From Oscillatoriophycideae cyanobacterium NC_groundwater_1537_Pr4_S-0.65um_50_18 (lineage in GTDB: Bacteria; Cyanobacteriota; Cyanobacteriia; Elainellales; Elainellaceae): a stretch of DNA of 64,000 bases. Position numbers and translations under genes: made by a program. This document shows positions 1,616-25,352 of the stretch, piece by piece. Location of the stretch: contig JACQYI010000006.1 in NCBI GenBank assembly GCA_016208305.1, forward strand, positions 496,001-560,000, read 5' to 3'. Each line of letters opens with the position of its first letter. Position 1 is the stretch's first letter. The notes under the pieces were generated by a model. That model saw only the letters and a list, made by a program, of their open reading frames with translations, made no database searches and was not told where the DNA came from.

Positions 1616-3229
1616 TTAGCTTCTTTGAAAAACAGGCAGCATCACAGTAAACACTGAGCCTTCAGCAACTTTGCTCTTAACCGCAATTGAGCCACCGCAG
1701 CGCAAGAGAAGCTGTTGCACGATCGACAAACCTAAGCCCGATCCGCTGGAGTCTTCTCCCGCAGCAATGCGCACCCGGTAGAAGCGATCGAAAATTTTGG
1801 GCAGATCGGCTTGGGCAATGCCAATACCCGTATCGCGAAACTCAATTTGCACATAGTCACCCAGCTCTTTGGCGCGAACCCACACCTGCCCCGAACTGGC
1901 TGTAAATTTAATGCTGTTGTGCAGCAGGTGAATCACAATTTGCTTCAGCCAAGGGCTAAAGCAAGAAACAGCCGACAGATCTTCTGGAATGGTGTAGCCC
2001 AGCATAATGCCTTTTTCTTGTGCTAACGGCTGGTAGGTGCTTACAACACCCGGCACTATATCCGATAGTCGCAGAGATTCCATCGGAACTGACTCGACTG
2101 TGCTTTCAATCTGCACCAGATCCAAAACGCTGGTGATGAGAGAGCTTTGGCGATCGCACTCTTGGCTCAGCATATCCATATACCTTTGGCGCTGAGGTGG
2201 CTTGATACTGGGCGAGTTCAGCAACGAGAGCGCTGTTTTCATGCTAGTCAGCGGCGTGCGCAACTCTTGCCCCATAATTTTGATGAACTCATCTTTTTGC
2301 TGAATGGTGTTCAACAACTCCTCATTTTCCAGGCGCAGCGCAGAAACCCCTTCAGACTGCCGTCGATGCGTCGCACTGCTGCGCCAAATATCTTCCTGCC
2401 GCTGAATCTGCTTTACCAGAAGGTTGCCTAGCAAGATGGGGTTAAGCGTTGTGATGCCCCCCGTCTCCACTAGCTGCTCCCAAGAGATTAATAGCTTTGT
2501 CAGCTCATCGCTCGATTGGGTTTCGGGTTGACCAAAGCAAATGGCACGATTAATTCCGTCTAGCACCTGTTGCAGCGTAGTAGCTTCAAACGTACAGAGT
2601 CCCAAAAGCGGATGCTTTTGCTCTAAGACATCCTCGCTAGACAGCGGTAGTTTGGTCATCTTTTCCGATCGCCCTAGCTCAACTTTAGGCTGCCCCGATC
2701 GAGGGCGATGCGCTAAAACTAACCCATAAAACTCAGGTGCCGTAACCAGCAAAAAATATTCACGTTTGAGCTGACTTTCGGCGGCTAAAGGCAGAGTGTA
2801 GACCTGTGAGCCTTCTGGGGCTTCAGCGATCGGCTCTTTGTAGTTCTGAGCTAAGGCTTGTTCTAGAGCCAGGTCGGTTACTTCTAGATTATTTTCTGCC
2901 AACTCCCAAGGCAAAGCACTCGGAGATTTCGCTTTTGCTTTTTTGCCTTTGCCTTCCTCTTTCTCTAAATCTGGTTGCGTCTGCAAGTTGTACAGTCGGT
3001 AAGGCGCTGTAGCCGACTGACAAAAGCGCTGAATCTCGTTCTGCCAAACATCACCCTTGGGCAGCTTTAGCCAAATTGTTGCTGCAATGTTTTGTTCAAC
3101 TAATAAATCAAAAACTAGCCCCACCATCGACTTAAAAGTTGTTGGGCTAATTTTCAGGGGTTCGGAGGCAGGCGAAAACCCCGTGGCTAATTCATAAAGG
3201 GACGCATCAGGAGAACGAGAAAGGTTCAT
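1616..3229 (-). CDS. Histidine-kinase-like protein with Gln in place of the phospho-acceptor His
   Basis: A 537-residue cytosolic protein without membrane segments. Residues 1 to about 240 form a sensor region I cannot name, with a Lys-rich low-complexity stretch near 90-102. The HisKA-like helix starts near 310, and its H box reads MGQELRTPLT: Gln321 stands where kinases have the phosphorylated His (consensus SHELRTPL). The codon is CAA, at 2267-2269. The HATPase domain looks complete, with an N box (HNSIKFT), G1 (DTGIGI), F box (FDRFYRV) and G2 (GSGLGLSIVQQ). It may therefore bind ATP but not autophosphorylate in the usual way, acting as a pseudokinase or a partner of another kinase. No response regulator gene is adjacent. 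Confidence 0.8.
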   Translation of the reverse strand: MNLSRSPDASLYELATGFSPASEPLKISPTTFKSMVGLVFDLLVEQNIAATIWLKLPKGDVWQNEIQRFCQSATAPYRLYNLQTQPDLEKEEGKGKKAKAKSPSALPWELAENNLEVTDLALEQALAQNYKEPIAEAPEGSQVYTLPLAAESQLKREYFLLVTAPEFYGLVLAHRPRSGQPKVELGRSEKMTKLPLSSEDVLEQKHPLLGLCTFEATTLQQVLDGINRAICFGQPETQSSDELTKLLISWEQLVETGGITTLNPILLGNLLVKQIQRQEDIWRSSATHRRQSEGVSALRLENEELLNTIQQKDEFIKIMGQELRTPLTSMKTALSLLNSPSIKPPQRQRYMDMLSQECDRQSSLITSVLDLVQIESTVESVPMESLRLSDIVPGVVSTYQPLAQEKGIMLGYTIPEDLSAVSCFSPWLKQIVIHLLHNSIKFTASSGQVWVRAKELGDYVQIEFRDTGIGIAQADLPKIFDRFYRVRIAAGEDSSGSGLGLSIVQQLLLRCGGSIAVKSKVAEGSVFTVMLPVFQRS

Positions 3230-3564: not shown

Positions 3565-5079
3565 CTACACAGACTGAGCAGCCTGCGTTAAGCGTTGAGC
3601 CAGGGCACTGCGAGCTTGCTCTCGATCGTCAAAGTGAACTTTTTCAGTACCTAGAATCTGATAGTCCTCATGACCTTTACCCGCAATAAGCACGCCATCA
3701 CCGGGTTTTGCTGACAAAATGGCTGTGCGAATAGCCTCAGCCCGATCGCCAATAACCGTTGGGTTAGCACTGGCAGGAATTCCCGCCAGGATATCTTGCA
3801 AAATGCGCTCAGGGTCTTCGGTGCGAGGGTTATCAGAGGTAACGATCGCCCAATCCGACTGATGAGCCGCAATACCGCCCATTAAAGGACGCTTCGTGCG
3901 ATCGCGATCGCCACCACAGCCAAACACGCAGATCATGCGACCTGAAATAAACGGTCGGGCGGCTTTCAGCATATTTTCCAGGCTATCGGGCGTATGGGCA
4001 TAGTCTACGATGACGCTGATGTCTTGATTGGCTTGAAGCTGCACTTGTTCCATTCTGCCGGGAACGCCCGTAAACTGAGGCAGCGCTTGCGCCAAAGTTG
4101 CCAAATCCACCCCCAGGTGCAGCGTTGCCCCTGCAGCCGCCAGCAAATTTGCGAGGTTAAACTGACCCACCAGAGGCGAGTGAAAGGCTGTGTCTCCTTG
4201 CGGACTGTGCAAAATACCGCGTACCCCTTCTGGTTCATAGACCAAATCGCTCATCCACAAATCAGCGCTCGAATTTTCAACGCTGTAAGACCAGACTTTT
4301 TCGGCAGGGAGGCGATCGATCAACCTGCGCCCGTAGGCATCATCCAGGTTCACAACAGCCAACCCCTTGAGGTAATCCGGGTGAAACAGCAAAGCCTTCG
4401 CTTCAAAGTAGTCTTCTAAATCTTTGTGATAGTCCAAGTGGTCTTGGGTCAAGTTGGTGAATACTGACACTGCAAAAGGACACCCCCAGACGCGCCCCTG
4501 TGCCAAAGCGTGGGAACTCACTTCCATGACAGCAAACCGACAGCCCGCATCCACCGCTTCGCTCAGGTGAGCCTGCAAATCTGGGGCAAAAGGGGTTGTG
4601 TGAACGGCAGTCTGTTGATGCCCTGCCCAACGGCTATAGAGCGTGCCAAACAGGGCAGTCGTCTGCTGCGTCTGATTCAGCAAGAATTCGATCAGATGGG
4701 TGGTAGTTGTTTTGCCATTTGTGCCCGTCACACCCACCAGCGACATCTTTTGCCCTGGATTATCGTAGAAGCTAGCAGCAACCTGGGCACAGGCGCGAGA
4801 CATATCGGCATAGGCCACGACACAAGCATTGTGGTCAGCAGCATCCGCCAAGGTTTTTTGTGCGGCCGAGGGCGATACCAAGGCTGCAATGGCTCCAGCA
4901 GCGATCGCACTTGCCCAAAACTCACCTCCGTCTACTCTGGTTCCGGGCATGCCGATAAACAGATCTCCAGGCTGACAGGCGTGAGAATTGGTTGCCAATC
5001 CCCTGACTTCTTGATCTAGCGCAGGATGCGGGGGCAGAGATATGGCAGGTAGCGTCGCCAGCAAATCTCTTAGTTTCAT
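3565..5079 (-). CDS. murE: UDP-N-acetylmuramoyl-tripeptide synthetase MurE
   Basis: MurE adds the third stem-peptide residue to UDP-MurNAc-L-Ala-D-Glu in cytosolic peptidoglycan precursor synthesis. The 504 residues match family length. Visible signatures are the Mur-ligase ATP loop VGVTGTNGKTTTTH (about 115-128), the EAK motif with the carbamylated lysine (Lys228), VDYAHTPDSLE (358-368) and FGCGGDRDRTKRP (386-398). The specificity motif DNPRTEDPE (416-424) is the one that marks meso-diaminopimelate rather than lysine ligases. A glutaredoxin-like gene lies 47 bases upstream on the same strand, so the two may be co-transcribed. Confidence 0.95.
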   Translation of the reverse strand: MKLRDLLATLPAISLPPHPALDQEVRGLATNSHACQPGDLFIGMPGTRVDGGEFWASAIAAGAIAALVSPSAAQKTLADAADHNACVVAYADMSRACAQVAASFYDNPGQKMSLVGVTGTNGKTTTTHLIEFLLNQTQQTTALFGTLYSRWAGHQQTAVHTTPFAPDLQAHLSEAVDAGCRFAVMEVSSHALAQGRVWGCPFAVSVFTNLTQDHLDYHKDLEDYFEAKALLFHPDYLKGLAVVNLDDAYGRRLIDRLPAEKVWSYSVENSSADLWMSDLVYEPEGVRGILHSPQGDTAFHSPLVGQFNLANLLAAAGATLHLGVDLATLAQALPQFTGVPGRMEQVQLQANQDISVIVDYAHTPDSLENMLKAARPFISGRMICVFGCGGDRDRTKRPLMGGIAAHQSDWAIVTSDNPRTEDPERILQDILAGIPASANPTVIGDRAEAIRTAILSAKPGDGVLIAGKGHEDYQILGTEKVHFDDREQARSALAQRLTQAAQSV

Positions 5080-5126
5080 GTCAACAACTCCTTATGCCTG
5101 TTTTGCTTCAGCCTTTAAGCTTGCGC

Positions 5127-5447
5127 TCATTTTGCCTCATTTTTTGAAGTTTCCACTAGGGATTTTTGTAAGACTTGCTCAATTTGTCGGACTGATGCGC
5201 GTGCAGAAATACGGGGCAGCGGAATTAAAGGGGTATGGGGCTTCTCTGTCTGGGCATCACTCTGCATGCTCATGGCTGGGACAAGGTATAAAACTGGAAT
5301 TTCATACTGGTAAGCCTGAAACCAATCCTCACGGGTCGTAATATCACGAATTTCTAGCTCTATTGGAGGGTTTTGAACTTGCTTTAGTTTGCTCTGTAAC
5401 CCTTCGCACAGATGGCAACCGGGTTTGCTGTAGAGGATAAGGTGCAT
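5127..5447 (-). CDS. Glutaredoxin-family thiol protein
   Basis: A 106-residue protein starting MHLILYSKPGCHLCEGL, the first strand and CxxC active site (CHLC, residues 11-14) of the thioredoxin-fold glutaredoxin-like family (DUF836 type). The middle has IELEIRDITTREDW and YQYEIPVLYL, which supplies the cis-proline strand (IPV). This family is thought to act in thiol-disulfide exchange, with substrates unknown. It is the upstream gene of a probable pair with murE. The C-terminal third (RASVRQIEQVLQKSL) is a helix as expected for the fold. Confidence 0.8.
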   Translation of the reverse strand: MHLILYSKPGCHLCEGLQSKLKQVQNPPIELEIRDITTREDWFQAYQYEIPVLYLVPAMSMQSDAQTEKPHTPLIPLPRISARASVRQIEQVLQKSLVETSKNEAK

Positions 5448-12413: not shown

Positions 12414-13115
12414 TTAGGGCGATCGCAGCTTCAGCGCCAAAGCTAGCTGATCGGTGATGATGCCCGCAACTTTAGAGTTAGCCAAAAGTGTTTTGATGGC
12501 CGTAGGCTGATTTACAGTCCATACCCAAAAAGGCAGTTCGGAAGGAACCCTTTGCCTCAGCCATTCTGTTTCTAAAATCTGCCAGTCGGGCGCTATAAAA
12601 TTCACGCCAATCGTTTGTAGCCGATCGCGCCATAGTTCAGGAGATAAATCATCCGCCTCGCGCGTTTCTTGTTCTACCAAAAAACCGATCGTTATTTCAG
12701 ACGCTAGGTGTCTAATGGCAGCAATGGCTTCTAGATGAAAGGAGGTGATCGCAAAGCTGTTGAGAGGTAAAGACTGGATCTGTTGGACGATCGCCGCTTC
12801 ATAGCCCGGTTCTTTTAACTCAATATCCATAAAAGTGTGTCCTTGGCAGCAGGCGATCGTGTCTTGCAAAGTCGGGATCTCAGGCGCAATGGCCTGCAAT
12901 TCTCGCCAGGTGACTTCTCGCATCAAATGCCCCTTCACCGCTGGATCATGATGAACGACGAGAACCTGATCTTGAGTCGATCGCACATCAAATTCCACAC
13001 CATCTGCTCCCAAGGCGATCGCCCGTTCAAAGGCAGCGATCGTATTTTCTTTGGCTTTGGCTCCACGATGGGCAATGATTTTGGGTCGGATCGAAGGCGT
13101 AAATTTAGGGTTCAC
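12414..13115 (-). CDS. Glycerophosphodiester phosphodiesterase
   Basis: This enzyme hydrolyses glycerophosphodiesters from phospholipid turnover to glycerol-3-phosphate and an alcohol. The 233 residues fit the UgpQ-type cytosolic family; no signal peptide is seen. The family signature is clear: IIAHRGAKAKENTIAAF (catalytic His and Arg, about 13-29), GADGVEFDVRSTQDQVLVV with metal-binding Glu/Asp, and the second catalytic His in HHDP. Near the C-terminus are FWVWTVNQP and GIITDQL. The first 11 bases overlap the end of the response regulator gene, so it is the last gene of a three-gene operon with the two-component system. Confidence 0.9.
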   Translation of the reverse strand: MNPKFTPSIRPKIIAHRGAKAKENTIAAFERAIALGADGVEFDVRSTQDQVLVVHHDPAVKGHLMREVTWRELQAIAPEIPTLQDTIACCQGHTFMDIELKEPGYEAAIVQQIQSLPLNSFAITSFHLEAIAAIRHLASEITIGFLVEQETREADDLSPELWRDRLQTIGVNFIAPDWQILETEWLRQRVPSELPFWVWTVNQPTAIKTLLANSKVAGIITDQLALALKLRSP

Positions 13116-13764
13116 GTTCCAGCACGGTCAATATTGAGTTGGCAAAAATAGCGGCTTGGGTGCGATCGCGTAACTCTAACCGCCCCAGCAGATTAGTAAC
13201 GTGATTTTTGACCGTTCCTTCAGAAATATAGAGCGTTTGAGCAATTTCTCGGTTGCTTGCACCCTGAGCAATTAGCTTCAAGACTTCGCGTTCGCGGGGG
13301 GTTAGCTCAGCAAAGCCAGGGGGCAAATCGGGCAAAGGTGGCGCAGCAACTGCGGGCTTGGATATGAGCCGCTGCAAAATGCCAGGGGCAAATTGGGTGT
13401 AGCCTTTGTCAACGGTGCGAATAGCTTGAGCCAACTCTTCTGAGGGCGTATCTTTGAGCAAATAACCCACTGCACCCTGTTGCAGAGCCGCTGTAACATA
13501 TTCATCTTCATCGAACGTCGTCAACATCAGCACTTTGATGGCTGGAAAGCGTTGGACGATCGCCTGGGTTGCCGCTACACCATCCATTACGGGCATCCGT
13601 ACATCCATTAACACAACATCGGGCTGTAGTGCCGCGACCTGCTGAAGGGCAACTTGGCCATTTTCGGCGTCGCCCACTACCTCTAAGTCAGGCTCTAGCT
13701 GCAATAGCGCTTTTAATCCTTGGCGAATGATTTTTTGATCATCTACCAGAAACACTCGAATCAT
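13105..13764 (-). CDS. NarL/LuxR-type response regulator
   Basis: A 219-residue DNA-binding response regulator. The receiver domain (1 to about 120) has the acidic pair Asp8/Asp9, phospho-acceptor Asp54 in DVVLMDVRMPVMDG, Thr in MLTTFDEDEY and Lys in YLLKDTPSEEL. The LuxR-type HTH (about 150-210) reads LTPREREVLKLIAQGASN and ISEGTVKNHVTNLLGRL. It overlaps the kinase gene by four bases (ATGA) and the phosphodiesterase gene by 11 bases, so all three should be co-translated. The divergent Spy-like gene is a natural candidate target. Confidence 0.95.
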   Translation of the reverse strand: MIRVFLVDDQKIIRQGLKALLQLEPDLEVVGDAENGQVALQQVAALQPDVVLMDVRMPVMDGVAATQAIVQRFPAIKVLMLTTFDEDEYVTAALQQGAVGYLLKDTPSEELAQAIRTVDKGYTQFAPGILQRLISKPAVAAPPLPDLPPGFAELTPREREVLKLIAQGASNREIAQTLYISEGTVKNHVTNLLGRLELRDRTQAAIFANSILTVLEREP

Positions 13765-15002
13765 ATAGCAGCAAGCAAAGGAATTTGAACGGTGATGCGG
13801 CAGCCTTTGCTGGGCTGTGTGTCAATTTGGAGATGTCCCCCTAAAGCGATCGTTCTTTCGTGCATGCCCTGTAGCCCAAATCCTGTTCGGTTAGCGGCAA
13901 GCTGAAAGCCACTCCCATTATCTTGAATCATCAGATATAACATTGCTGGCTGCAAGTCAGAGGTCACCCGTAGCTGAATTTCTACCTCTGTAGCTTTGGC
14001 ATGTTTACGAATATTGGTCAGCGCTTCTTGGATGATGCGATAAAGGGCCGTACTCATTTCAGGGGGGAGCGATCGCGAAAGCTGAATCTGACACTGCGGC
14101 TGAATGCCTGTGGTGCGCTGAAAGTCTTCTGTCAAGGTGGCGATCGCTTTAGATAAGACCTGTCCTTGCAATGGATCAGAACGCATAGCAGACACCGATC
14201 GCCGCACTTCTTGCAAAGCCGTCGAACCCAATTGCTTTGCTTCTCGCAAAAAGAGGTGTGACTGCTCTGGATCAGAATCCCATAGCTTCAAAGCGCCTTC
14301 CATCTGGAGGTTTAGCCCCGTTAACGCATGGCCTACAGAGTCATGGATCTCACGCGCAATTCGGGCACGCTCTTGCGCCATAGCCAAATTTTCAACGCGC
14401 AGGGCATATTGCCGTAGCTGATCATGGGCAACGGTTAGTTTTTCTCGGCTTTGTCGTTCGGTGATCAGCGCATTGACCAACAGCAAAATCAACACTAGAA
14501 CCAGCCCTAGCAGCAAAACAAAATTGAACAGCAGAGGTCGGTTATGCACTTGCCAGAGCGGGGGCGATCGCAACTCTGTTCGCCAGACAAAGCGAGACAG
14601 CATAACCACAAATAAGGTAAAAGCGCAGCTGAGAATGATTAACTGTCCCGATAGTTTGAAAATCAGGCAGCTCCGAATCATCAACACCACATAGAGGAAC
14701 GGAAACATGCGCGGATTATTACCTGCTGCCGCCATCACAATCAAGCTAATTTCTAGAGCGGTATAGACAATTTTGTAGGCAAGCTTCGGATCGGGTGATG
14801 GAGCGCGCTGTTTGCGAGGCAACCATAACCCCATAAGCGCAAAACCGAGCAAACTCAAGAGATTGAGTAAGGGGAATCGCTCAACGAATCGGGGCATGGG
14901 CGCAGGCAAAAATTCTCCTAAAAGGGCGATCGCCAGAAGTCCCCACTCTAGATACAGCAGAAACGGAAAGGGATGATTCTGAATCAGACGAGGGCGATTC
15001 AT
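13761..15002 (-). CDS. Membrane sensor histidine kinase, NarX/DesK-like (HPK7)
   Basis: A 413-residue kinase with about five to six hydrophobic segments in residues 10-180 and no sizeable extracytoplasmic domain, so sensing is probably within the membrane, as in DesK. A short coiled linker (TERQSREKLTVAHDQL) leads to the HisKA_3 motif REIHDSVGHALTGLNLQ with phospho-acceptor His220. The HATPase part shows IRKHAKATEVEI (N box), DNGSGFQL and GFGLQGMHER. It is the first gene of an operon with its response regulator. A three-copy 12-base repeat lies 66-101 bases upstream. Confidence 0.95.
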   Translation of the reverse strand: MNRPRLIQNHPFPFLLYLEWGLLAIALLGEFLPAPMPRFVERFPLLNLLSLLGFALMGLWLPRKQRAPSPDPKLAYKIVYTALEISLIVMAAAGNNPRMFPFLYVVLMIRSCLIFKLSGQLIILSCAFTLFVVMLSRFVWRTELRSPPLWQVHNRPLLFNFVLLLGLVLVLILLLVNALITERQSREKLTVAHDQLRQYALRVENLAMAQERARIAREIHDSVGHALTGLNLQMEGALKLWDSDPEQSHLFLREAKQLGSTALQEVRRSVSAMRSDPLQGQVLSKAIATLTEDFQRTTGIQPQCQIQLSRSLPPEMSTALYRIIQEALTNIRKHAKATEVEIQLRVTSDLQPAMLYLMIQDNGSGFQLAANRTGFGLQGMHERTIALGGHLQIDTQPSKGCRITVQIPLLAAI

Positions 15003-20737: not shown

Positions 20738-21118
20738 ATGCCAACGATTCAGCAACTCATCCACAACGAACGTAACAAAGCCAAGAAGAAGACAAAATCT
20801 CCTGCTTTGAAGAGCTGTCCTCAGCGCCGGGGTGTCTGCACCCGGGTTTATACAACTACGCCTAAGAAGCCAAACTCCGCTCTACGTAAAGTGGCGCGGG
20901 TTCGTCTCACCTCAGGATTTGAGGTCACGGCTTACATTCCCGGCATCGGGCACAACCTACAAGAACACTCTGTCGTGATGATTCGCGGCGGTCGGGTTAA
21001 GGATTTGCCTGGTGTCAGATATCACATCATTCGCGGAACGCTAGACACGGCTGGAGTGAAGGATCGTAAGCAAGGGCGCTCCAAATATGGAGCTAAGCGT
21101 CCTAAAGCGGCAAAGTAA
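20738..21118 (+). CDS. rpsL: 30S ribosomal protein S12
   Basis: S12 sits at the decoding centre of the small subunit. The 126 residues are full length. The [12 protein letters not shown] loop carries the Lys pair at which streptomycin-resistance changes are known, here in the sensitive form. The D88-region signature [14 protein letters not shown] is also intact. It is the first gene of the str operon, 75 bases after the promoter. The 268-base gap to rpsG is long for this operon and holds no supported gene. Confidence 0.98.
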
Positions 21119-21386
21119 TTGGCAGGTTTCTGAGTTGGTTGCGCTATCGAATCGACTCAGAGATTACTTTGACATATCGCAATTTTTCGCATCTGATCGC
21201 ACTAGCGCTGAGATGCTGGAAGTACGAATTCGTCTCACTGAATCAGGTAGAGCGAGTCTGAACCACTGTCATGCTTGCTACTTTAGGAGCTTGTCAACTC
21301 AGGCTGTAGCTTACCCAGAATTCTTCCAATCCTGACCATTTCAACCCTAATAGCCTCATTAAAGCTTTATCCCCTAGAACTGACCT

Positions 21387-21857
21387 ATGTCTCGTCGTAC
21401 TGTTGTTCAAAAGCGTCCAATTCAGCCCGATCCGGTTCATAACAGCCGAGTGGTTACCATGATGGTGTCACGGCTTATGAAGAGCGGTAAAAAATCTATT
21501 GCTTACGGCATTATTTATGATGCCTTTAAGATGATCGAAGAGCGAACGGGTTCAGATCCCCTTGAGCTGTTTGAGCGAGCCGTCAAGAACGCAACTCCTC
21601 TAGTCGAAGTAAAGGCTCGTAGGGTTGGGGGTGCAACCTATCAGGTTCCTATGGAAGTCCGTTCTGATCGAGGCACTGCACTAGCACTACGTTGGCTTTC
21701 GCAGTTTGCACGTCAACGCTCTGGCAGAACGATGGCAGGCAAATTGGCAAATGAACTGATGGATGCAGCCAACGAAACTGGAAGTGCAATTCGTAAGCGT
21801 GAAGAAACCCATCGCATGGCTGAAGCAAATAAGGCCTTTGCTCACTACCGCTATTAG
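21387..21857 (+). CDS. rpsG: 30S ribosomal protein S7
   Basis: S7 initiates assembly of the 30S head and contacts the E site. The 156 residues match the bacterial family, beginning [10 protein letters not shown] and including [30 protein letters not shown] (RNA-binding beta ribbon) and [16 protein letters not shown] at the C-terminus. The second gene of the str operon. Its stop codon lies inside the first unit of an 11-base triplicate repeat (21851-21883). Confidence 0.98.
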
Positions 21858-21883
21858 AGCGCTATTAGAGCGCTATTGGAGCA
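21851..21883 (+). repeat. Three tandem 11-base copies spanning the rpsG stop codon
   Basis: CTATTAGAGCG occurs twice exactly and a third time as CTATTGGAGCA. The first copy includes the rpsG stop codon TAG, so the expansion has left the S7 sequence unchanged. Confidence 0.75.
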
Positions 21884-22021
21884 TTTGGATGGCGAGGTCG
21901 CCTGCGCTGTGAGTTCTCATCAAGTTTGTAAAAACAACACGTTAGCTATAAATAAAGTATAAAATCTTAACAGACGCAGCCTTTGCAAGGGGGCGCTGCG
22001 GCACAAGACAAGGAGGTCGCT

Positions 22022-24097
22022 GTGGCACGCACTATCCCGCTAGATCGGGTTCGTAATATTGGAATTGCCGCTCACATTGACGCGGGCAAAACAACGACGA
22101 CCGAGAGAATTCTGTTCTACTCTGGCGTTGTGCATAAAATCGGCGAGGTTCATGAGGGGACAGCAGTCACTGATTGGATGGAGCAAGAGCGGGAGCGCGG
22201 TATCACCATTACTGCTGCTGCGATTAGCACAAGCTGGAATGACCATCGCATCAACATCATTGACACGCCAGGTCACGTTGACTTCACCATTGAGGTGGAG
22301 CGATCCATGCGGGTTTTGGATGGGGTAATTGCGGTTTTCTGTTCGGTGGGAGGTGTGCAGCCTCAGTCTGAGACGGTTTGGCGGCAGGCAGATCGCTACA
22401 GCGTTCCTCGTATCGTCTTCATCAATAAGATGGATCGGACAGGTGCGAATTTCTATAGAGTCTATGAGCAAATTCGCGATCGCCTTCGCGCTAATGCTGT
22501 GCCCATTCAGCTACCTATTGGCAGTGAAGATGTCTTCAAAGGCATTGTCGATCTGGTCAAGATGAAGGCGTATATTTACGTCGATGAGTTGGGATCAAAG
22601 CCAGAGGAAATTGAAATTCCTGAGGACATGAAAGACCTAGCTCAGGAGTATCACGCCAAGCTGGTTGAATCGGTTGCCGAAACAGACGACGTGCTGATTG
22701 AGAAGTATCTCGGTGGTGAAGAACTCACCGAAGCTGAAATTCGTAAGGGTCTTCGCATTGGCACCGTTGCAGGCAAAATCGTACCGCTGATTTGTGGTTC
22801 AGCCTTCAAAAACAAGGGAGTTCAGCTTCTGCTAGATGCAGTGGTTGACTATTTGCCTTCACCTCTTGAAGTTCGTCCTATTCAAGGGCTGCTTCCAGAT
22901 GGCAGTACAGCAATTCGCCTTGCTAGCGATACTGAGCCAACTGCTGCGCTGGCCTTTAAAATCATGGCTGACCCCTATGGCCGCCTGACCTTTGTGCGCG
23001 TCTATTCTGGAGTGCTAACCAAGGGTAGCTATGTCTACAATGCCTCTAAGGATAAAAAAGAGCGGATTTCTCGCCTAATTATTCTCAAGGCAGACGATCG
23101 CCAAGAGGTTGATGAGCTTAGAGCAGGCGATTTGGGCGCTGCGTTAGGTCTAAAGGACACTTTTACAGGTGATACGCTTTGTGATGAGGGTTCGCCCATC
23201 ATCTTAGAATCGCTATTTGTTCCAGAGCCTGTCATTTCGGTTGCAGTTGAGCCGAAAACCAAGCAAGATATGGAAAAGCTTTCCAAAGCGCTACAGGCTC
23301 TGTCTGAAGAAGATCCAACCTTCCGCGTTAGCGTTGATTCAGAGACCAACCAGACGGTGATTGCCGGCATGGGTGAGCTTCATCTGGATATCCTTGTCGA
23401 TCGCATGAAGCGAGAGTACAAGGTAGAAGCTAACGTGGGTGCACCTCAGGTGGCCTACCGAGAGACAATTCGCAAATCTGTGCGCGCCGAAGGCAAGTTT
23501 GTTCGCCAGAGTGGTGGCAAAGGTCAGTACGGGCACGTCGTGATCCAACTTGAACCTGGTGAACCCGGCACAGGATTTGAATTTGTCTCTAAAATTGTGG
23601 GTGGCACCGTTCCCAAAGAGTATATTGCTCCGGCTGAACAGGGGATGAAGGAAGCTTGTGAGTCTGGCATCTTGGCAGGATATCCTGTTATTGATCTCAA
23701 GGTTACAATGGTGGACGGCTCTTATCATGATGTAGACTCTTCAGAAATGGCATTCAAAATTGCTGGTTCAATGGCAATTAAGGAAGCTGTGATGAAGGCT
23801 TCTCCAGTCTTGCTAGAGCCAACCATGAAGGTTGAAGTCGAAGTTCCTGAGGACTTCATCGGCAACGTAATCGGTGATTTGAACTCTCGCCGAGGGCAAA
23901 TTGAAGGCCAAGACACTGAGCAAGGCATTGCCAAGGTTACTGCTAAAGTACCCCTGGCAGAAATGTTTGGATATGCTACCGATATTCGGTCAAAGACCCA
24001 GGGTCGTGGCATATTCTCGATGGAGTTCAGCACCTATGACGAGGTACCTCGCAACGTCGCTGAAACCATCATTGCGAAGAGCAAAGGGAACGCATAG
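22022..24097 (+). CDS. fusA: Translation elongation factor G
   Basis: EF-G drives ribosome translocation with GTP hydrolysis. GTG at 22022 is chosen because GGAGG lies six bases upstream and the family start [17 protein letters not shown] follows; a longer frame reaches 21983. The resulting 691 residues are normal. GTPase motifs: [12 protein letters not shown] (G1), DTPGHVDFT (G3) and NKMDRTGA (G4). Domain IV has GGKGQYGHV and [16 protein letters not shown]. The third gene of the str operon, 25 bases before tuf. Confidence 0.97.
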
Positions 24098-24122
24098 TCA
24101 GTAAAGAGGAACGGATAGATAC

Positions 24123-25352
24123 ATGGCACGCGCAAAGTTTGAACGGACTAAACCTCACGTTAATATCGGCACCATTGGTCACGTTGACCATGGCAAAACA
24201 ACCCTGACTGCTGCAATTACAATGACTCTTGCAGCGCTGGGACAGGCTCAAGCGAAAAATTATGACCAGATCGATGCTGCGCCTGAAGAAAAAGCGCGGG
24301 GTATTACGATCAACACTGCTCACGTGGAATACGAAACCACTGAGCGTCACTATGCCCATGTGGACTGCCCCGGTCACGCTGACTATGTGAAAAACATGAT
24401 CACGGGTGCGGCGCAGATGGATGGTGCAATTCTAGTGGTTGCTGCCACCGATGGTGCCATGCCCCAGACTAAAGAGCACATTCTGTTGGCAAAGCAGGTT
24501 GGGGTTCCTAGCATTGTGGTTTTCTTGAACAAGATCGACCAAGTCGACGATGAGGAACTGCTTGAGCTGGTAGAACTTGAGCTGCGGGAACTTCTCAGCG
24601 ATTACGATTTCCCTGGCGATGATGTTCCTATCATTCGGGGTTCGGGATTAATGGCTTTGGAGCAAATGCAGAAGAACCCGAAGACCGTTAAGGGCGACAA
24701 CGAGTGGACTGATAAAATCTATGAGCTGATGGAAGCTGTAGATTCTTTCATTCCTACGCCTGAGCGTGACATCGATAAGCCTTTCTTGATGGCCGTAGAA
24801 GATGTCTTCACCATTACCGGTCGGGGTACCGTTGCTACGGGTCGGATTGAGCGTGGGAAAATCAAGGTGGGTGAAACGGTGGAAATCGTGGGTATCCGCG
24901 ACAGTCGCAGCACAACCGTCACTGGCATTGAGATGTTTAAGAAGAGTCTTGATGAAGGGATGGCGGGTGACAACGCAGGTCTGTTGCTTCGGGGTATCCA
25001 AAAGACTGACATTGAGCGGGGTATGGTGATTGCCAAGCCCGGTTCGATTAAGCCACACACCCAGTTTGAAGGTGAAGTGTATGTGCTTCAAGAGAAAGAA
25101 GGCGGTCGTAAGACGCCCTTTTTCCCAGGTTACAAGCCTCAGTTCTACGTCCGTACCACGGATGTAACAGGTACAATCGCCTCTTTCACAGCAGATGATG
25201 GGAGCGAAGCGGAAATGGTGATGCCGGGAGATCGGATCAAAATGACCGTTGAGCTGATTAACCCGATCGCAATTGAGCAAGGCATGCGTTTTGCTATCCG
25301 TGAGGGTGGTCGTACCATTGGAGCTGGCGTTGTTTCCAAGATCTTGAAATAG
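24123..25352 (+). CDS. tuf: Translation elongation factor Tu
   Basis: EF-Tu delivers aminoacyl-tRNA to the ribosome. The 409 residues are the usual cyanobacterial length, including the insertion near 180-190 ([16 protein letters not shown]). Motifs: [13 protein letters not shown] (G1), [13 protein letters not shown] (switch I), [20 protein letters not shown] (G3) and NKIDQVDD (G4). Domain 2 and 3 signatures [13 protein letters not shown] and [17 protein letters not shown] are present. Fourth gene of the str operon; a 15-base perfect hairpin separates it from rpsJ. Confidence 0.98.

Follow-up and report, generated by a model that had tools for sequence, protein, structure and literature searches.

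A cyanobacterial DICT kinase family without the phospho-acceptor histidine and an ATP-dead, histidine-bearing paralogue as candidate halves of one kinase

Analysis of a 64 kb stretch of cyanobacterial DNA (the window) revealed a histidine kinase-like protein that, judged by its sequence, belongs to an old cyanobacterial class of DICT kinases predicted to be unable to take phosphate on the usual residue. It has a mirror-image paralogue, encoded outside the window, in which the phospho-acceptor His is kept and the ATP site is lost. The first protein, here termed Q-HK, is encoded on the minus strand by a 537 aa open reading frame at 1616..3229. Pfam matches, all exceeding the cut-offs, identify a DICT sensory domain (residues 9-175, 2705..3205, E 5.5e-24), a HisKA (DHp) domain (residues 311-376, 2102..2299, E 1.7e-12) and a HATPase_c (CA) domain (residues 427-533, 1631..1951, E 5.5e-26), each on the minus strand. 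As the initial annotation had stated, the phospho-acceptor position is occupied by glutamine: the minus-strand codon at 2267..2269 is CAA (the plus strand reads TTG), and the encoded Gln321 falls exactly on the HisKA acceptor position of the Pfam match (surrounding residues IMGQELRTPLTSMKTAL). The H+4 position of the same helix is Thr325 (2255..2257, minus strand). The boxes of the ATP site are intact, comprising, all on the minus strand, the N-box Asn438 (1916..1918), the G1 box D466-T-G-I-G470 (1820..1834; DTGIGI at residues 466-471), the F box at residues 480-484 (1778..1792; F480, F483 and Y484) and, from the orthologue alignment, the G2 box GSGLGL at residues 496-501 (1727..1744). When 29 Q-HK members were scanned with Pfam, HisKA and HATPase_c were both matched in 29/29 and DICT in 27/29, with no PAS among the families listed for these members.

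Replacement of the acceptor histidine is a property of the family. In an alignment of 135 orthologues from 134 cyanobacterial genomes the acceptor residue was Gln in 121, Arg in seven, Leu in four, His in two and Glu in one, so that His is absent from 133/135. The glutamine is encoded by CAA in 68 orthologues and by CAG in 53, and the use of both codons indicates that synonymous changes have occurred while Gln was retained. Within the genome itself the acceptor is His in 31/31 other HisKA loci, where the H box was located by pattern, and in 28/28 closest paralogues, two sets that overlap. The suggestion of a conserved glutamine class, offered from recall in the initial annotation, thus proved right, and its view that the glutamine is no sequencing error is borne out by the close homologues, just 2/135 of which have His. 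Sequencing error or a pseudogene is refuted: the same residue is found in the two same-genus orthologues (L002, L003) and in named records (L031-L037), the frame is open and both glutamine codons are used. The presence of Leu at the acceptor position in four orthologues of the window's own family (L012, L013, L021, L022) speaks against a catalytic part for Gln itself. Histidine occurs only in L023 (genome G059, codon CAT) and L097 (genome G342, codon CAC); same-genus relatives of G059 (L046, L047) carry Gln, and the two histidines are possible natural reversions. Three short forms of Q-HK (L133, L144, L145) have open frames of 256-276 aa, apparently without the DICT domain.

The gene was found, one copy per genome, in 47/60 relatives by protein search (E <= 1e-40), and a match was present in 154/388 genomes of the class (E <= 1e-50). 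A profile search gave 157/388, namely those 154 and genomes G221, G250 and G299, with the threshold placed in the gap of a bimodal score distribution (no orthologue scored worse than 3e-87 and no other kinase better than 7e-65).

The ATP site of Q-HK is conserved as would be expected of a working kinase. Across the 135 orthologues N438 and D466 are both invariant, and the G1 glycines are nearly so (G468 134/135, G470 132/135). In the F box F480 and F483 are found in 135/135 and Y484 in 132/135, and in the G2 box G496 is present in 134, G498 in 135, L499 in 135, G500 in 134 and L501 in 135. The DHp helix is nearly frozen (K331 134/135, A333 135/135, Q361 135/135), with the H+1 glutamate, Glu322, kept in 130/135. 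Conservation is weaker at the H+4 position (Thr in 110, Ser in six, Asn in three and other residues in 16 of 135), which in HisKA kinases has to be Thr for phosphatase activity (PMC5727384). The intactness of the N, G1, F and G2 boxes noted for the single protein therefore extends to the family, and the proposal that the protein binds ATP without autophosphorylating in the normal way is well supported at the sequence level. The further suggestion of a degenerate sensor fits poorly with so strongly constrained a catalytic domain, and an orphan degenerate protein was rejected for the same conservation of the ATP site. An AlphaFold2 model of Q-HK was of low confidence (mean pLDDT 60.8, 8 sequences), and its structural matches show no more than a histidine kinase core.

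Clustering of the genes neighbouring Q-HK revealed a second kinase-like protein beside it. Among 23 such neighbours that were aligned, the rows covering the H box have His and lack DxGxG and GxGLGL motifs. This was examined in one paralogue from each of 80 genomes, of which 40 have Q-HK and 40 lack it (83 profile matches less three second copies), retrieved with a profile that was built from such His-bearing, ATP-dead sequences and so favours them. The H box has the acceptor His in 80/80, the H+1 Glu in 79/80 and the H+4 Thr in 80/80. The ATP motifs are gone, with the G1 Asp and the F-box Phe each in 0/80, the second G2 Gly in 2/80 and the third in 0/80, and no lineage examined has a live catalytic domain in this protein. 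In Pfam scans HisKA was above and HATPase_c below the cut-off in 5/5 paralogues, whilst DICT was matched in 1/11 (E 0.046) and HPTransfase in 1/11, at E 0.061 only. In-frame stops had been reported for three paralogues and were rejected, the frames being 544-581 aa long. In the present genome the paralogue is single-copy (G000:C41:887173-888552, locus L243), the next match to its profile falling from 5e-182 to 1e-17, a clear separation in spite of the bias of the profile. A profile search (E <= 1e-30) found it in 377/388 genomes of the class, including genomes of 1.6-1.8 Mb. It is apparently near-universal in cyanobacteria and, as far as its sequence tells, unable to act as a kinase alone.

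The two proteins are related beyond the common kinase core. Their profiles align over residues 139-537 with a probability of 99.7%, and the N-terminal parts alone align with a probability of 94.4% and a score of 58, against 9.8-14.7 in 15 column-shuffled controls. The shared sensor half covers residues 139-281 approximately and extends past the Pfam DICT match; the paralogue too is a DICT-type kinase, one that Pfam alone misses. Particular helix residues are likewise shared: Thr332 is present in 21/23 Q-HK proteins and 22/25 paralogues, against 0/28 among the ordinary kinases of the genome, Cys358 in 22/23, 24/25 and 5/28, and Gln361 in 23/23, 25/25 and 7/28, respectively, and the E-C-Q triple at 357, 358 and 361 occurs in 0/28 ordinary kinases. 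DHp helices, which carry these residues, form the dimer and contact the response regulator. In a tree of the core each family forms one clade with a support of 100. This tree neither establishes nor rejects the two families as sisters (p-AU 0.54), the topology uniting them being better by 1.0 log unit, and together with the shared helix residues it is compatible with a single duplication giving rise to both.

The paralogue is present in 156/157 genomes with Q-HK, the exception being an assembly of 1060 contigs (G273). It is also present in 221/231 genomes without Q-HK, so co-occurrence says little, and genomic position says more about the link. Amongst 121 genomes with coordinates for both genes, the two lie on one contig in 56, and they are less than 500 nt apart in 14, less than 2 kb in 17 and less than 30 kb in 40. 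All 17 pairs within 2 kb are convergent, and they are spread over nine families; in the present genome the genes are on different contigs. Directly upstream of Q-HK on the same strand, across a gap of 335 nt, lies a putative murE-like open reading frame (3565..5079), and neighbour clustering places relatives of it upstream of Q-HK in 67 of 140 loci, a number that includes some second copies of a genome. In two genomes without Q-HK (G340, G380) the paralogue converges on the murE gene at distances of 149 and 1121 nt, and nothing of Q-HK is left in the interval, which points to its loss from an older arrangement with Q-HK between murE and the paralogue. To account for the presence and absence of Q-HK, the tree of the 80 paralogues needs 10 or more changes. 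Paralogue residues that track Q-HK presence could be sought in 5 supported independent pairs only, a comparison with no power.

Other genes of the region were also noted. The window has the murE-like gene and a small gene, presumably thioredoxin-like, upstream of Q-HK at 3565-5447, and the order murE, small protein, presumed PAPS-reductase-like gene recurs in 67, 38 and 20 of the 140 loci, respectively. At 13105-15002 a LuxR-type response regulator gene adjoins, with an overlap of a few bases, that of a second kinase with the H box REIHDSVGH, by eye an ordinary two-component pair. Ribosomal proteins S12 and S7 and elongation factors G and Tu are encoded, by eye, in the usual order at 20738-25352, and no tRNA gene was found in the 64 kb.

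Considered together, one protein has an ATP site without an acceptor and the other an acceptor without an ATP site, the arrangement of a split kinase. As Q-HK keeps ATP and the paralogue keeps His, the simplest use of both would be a mixed dimer. Our preferred reading, held tentatively, is that Q-HK is the ATP-loaded half of such a dimer and phosphorylates the paralogue in trans. Q-HK would pair through its DHp helices with the ATP-dead, His-bearing paralogue, the catalytic domain of Q-HK would phosphorylate the paralogue's His, and the phosphorylated His would then serve a response regulator, which the paralogue, via its conserved Thr, would probably also dephosphorylate. We infer all four elements, namely the mixed dimer, trans phosphorylation, the direction in which phosphate flows and a response regulator at the end of the path; no response regulator was named among the paralogue's neighbours. 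A division of labour is seen in the phosphatase Thr, relaxed in Q-HK (110/135) and invariant in the paralogue. An EnvZ-type trans geometry is assumed, and some histidine kinases act in cis. In EnvZ, the H243A mutant and a G2-box mutant are each dead and autophosphorylate when mixed (PMC4734776). Such His-less and ATP-less partners correspond to the two natural genes described here, although the EnvZ pair consists of man-made mutants of one gene, whereas Q-HK and the paralogue are diverged and separately conserved, and phosphorylation between them is a prediction.

Several observations stand against trans phosphorylation by Q-HK. The paralogue, with its His and its dead ATP site, is found in the 40 Q-HK-free genomes examined; G340 and G380 keep murE and the paralogue with Q-HK gone; and the two genes are convergent, not co-transcribed and, in the present genome, on different contigs. 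The core tree, too, does not establish the two families as sisters. As the paralogue persists in most cyanobacteria without Q-HK, it must have a role that does not need Q-HK. That role would be, for example, phosphotransfer or phosphatase activity, with Q-HK an optional ATP source. Nor can the loss of the paralogue's ATP site be timed to the origin of Q-HK, the site being dead in every lineage examined. A fuller version of the proposal, which we regard as possible but doubtful, is a natural two-subunit HisKA kinase that arose by complementary decay of DICT paralogues, one with ATP and no His, the other with His and Thr and no ATP. In this version the Gln subunit would be optional and lost repeatedly, supplying ATP as a "plug-in" that makes a kinase of the His subunit, itself a near-universal phosphotransferase and phosphatase hub.

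The main rival is allostery of the kind seen in DivL, which would make Q-HK the possible allosteric partner foreseen in the initial annotation. The DHp/CA surface of a Q-HK dimer would bind a (phosphorylated) response regulator or a kinase and alter the partner's activity, any ATP binding being structural or regulatory. We consider this unlikely, though to be taken seriously. The almost frozen DHp helix is what would be expected of a binding surface, and the structures that best match the low-confidence Q-HK model include DivL (4q20), which also matches the family profile. Caulobacter DivL, which has Tyr for His, is described as lacking kinase and phosphatase activity, sensing DivK~P and binding a nucleotide analogue weakly, at 57 uM (PMC4211667). 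Against such weak binding, the near-invariant ATP site of Q-HK suggests that nucleotide is used. Both proteins have a HisKA/HATPase core in which the acceptor His is replaced family-wide, by Tyr in DivL and by Gln in Q-HK; they differ in that Q-HK carries DICT where DivL carries PAS and in belonging to different phyla, DivL being alphaproteobacterial. Q-HK, moreover, has a complementary ATP-dead paralogue, and we know of no such His-bearing protein next to DivL; the existence of this paralogue suggests a donor role for Q-HK and not degeneration.

Inhibition offers a further reading. RetS of Pseudomonas, a histidine kinase-like protein, is described as an inhibitor of another kinase, GacS, and Q-HK could similarly pair with the paralogue or another kinase and hold it inactive. 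The DHp residues and sensor half common to Q-HK and the paralogue, and the ability of the paralogue to do without Q-HK, fit this reading. RetS structures match the profiles of both proteins at the sequence level. An inhibitor of this kind would leave the fully conserved ATP site of Q-HK unexplained, and we judge it improbable. Less probable again is a dedicated response regulator phosphatase using Glu322 and Thr325 (perhaps Gln321) with ATP as cofactor. Most members do have the ELRT motif (E 130/135, T 110/135), but the Thr, which such a phosphatase should retain, is replaced by residues other than T, S or N in 16/135, and Gln321 is replaced by Leu or Arg in 11/135. In addition, HK853 H260A had diminished phosphatase activity (PMC5727384), so that His helps that reaction too. 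A normal kinase with another phospho-acceptor inside Q-HK is very improbable: the natural His versions L023 and L097 show that the fold tolerates His, but no other His column is conserved in the 135 orthologues, the best being H437 (93/135) and H174 (86/135).

Pseudo-histidine kinases and split kinases are already known. Spo0B and ChpT have a DHp His beside a catalytic-like domain without ATP motifs. The paralogue resembles both in these features; it differs in carrying a DICT-type sensor half and does not have a Pfam HPTransfase match of the required strength. Kinase activity and phospho-His are on two proteins in CheA4/CheA3 of Rhodobacter sphaeroides and in Hik36/Hik43 of Synechocystis, each pair being a split CheA. 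The latter pair was rejected on that ground as the known version of Q-HK and its paralogue. Split CheA has a separate HPt domain and CheW coupling, whereas Q-HK and its paralogue are HisKA-type and both keep the two domains, each minus one function; Pfam scans found no CheA domain order with HPt in either protein. In the literature searched, with limited coverage of subscription papers, neither a HisKA pair whose losses complement each other nor these DICT kinases were found described.

If true, phosphorylation of the paralogue by Q-HK would mirror in nature the classic experiment in which two mutants complement each other, and would illustrate a route from a homodimeric kinase to a mixed one. 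The paralogue, present in 377 of the 388 cyanobacterial genomes examined, would then have a function assigned to it; generic annotation would label it a histidine kinase, although by its sequence it cannot be one alone. Should trans phosphorylation prove wrong, neither Q-HK nor the paralogue should even then be counted as a self-sufficient kinase.
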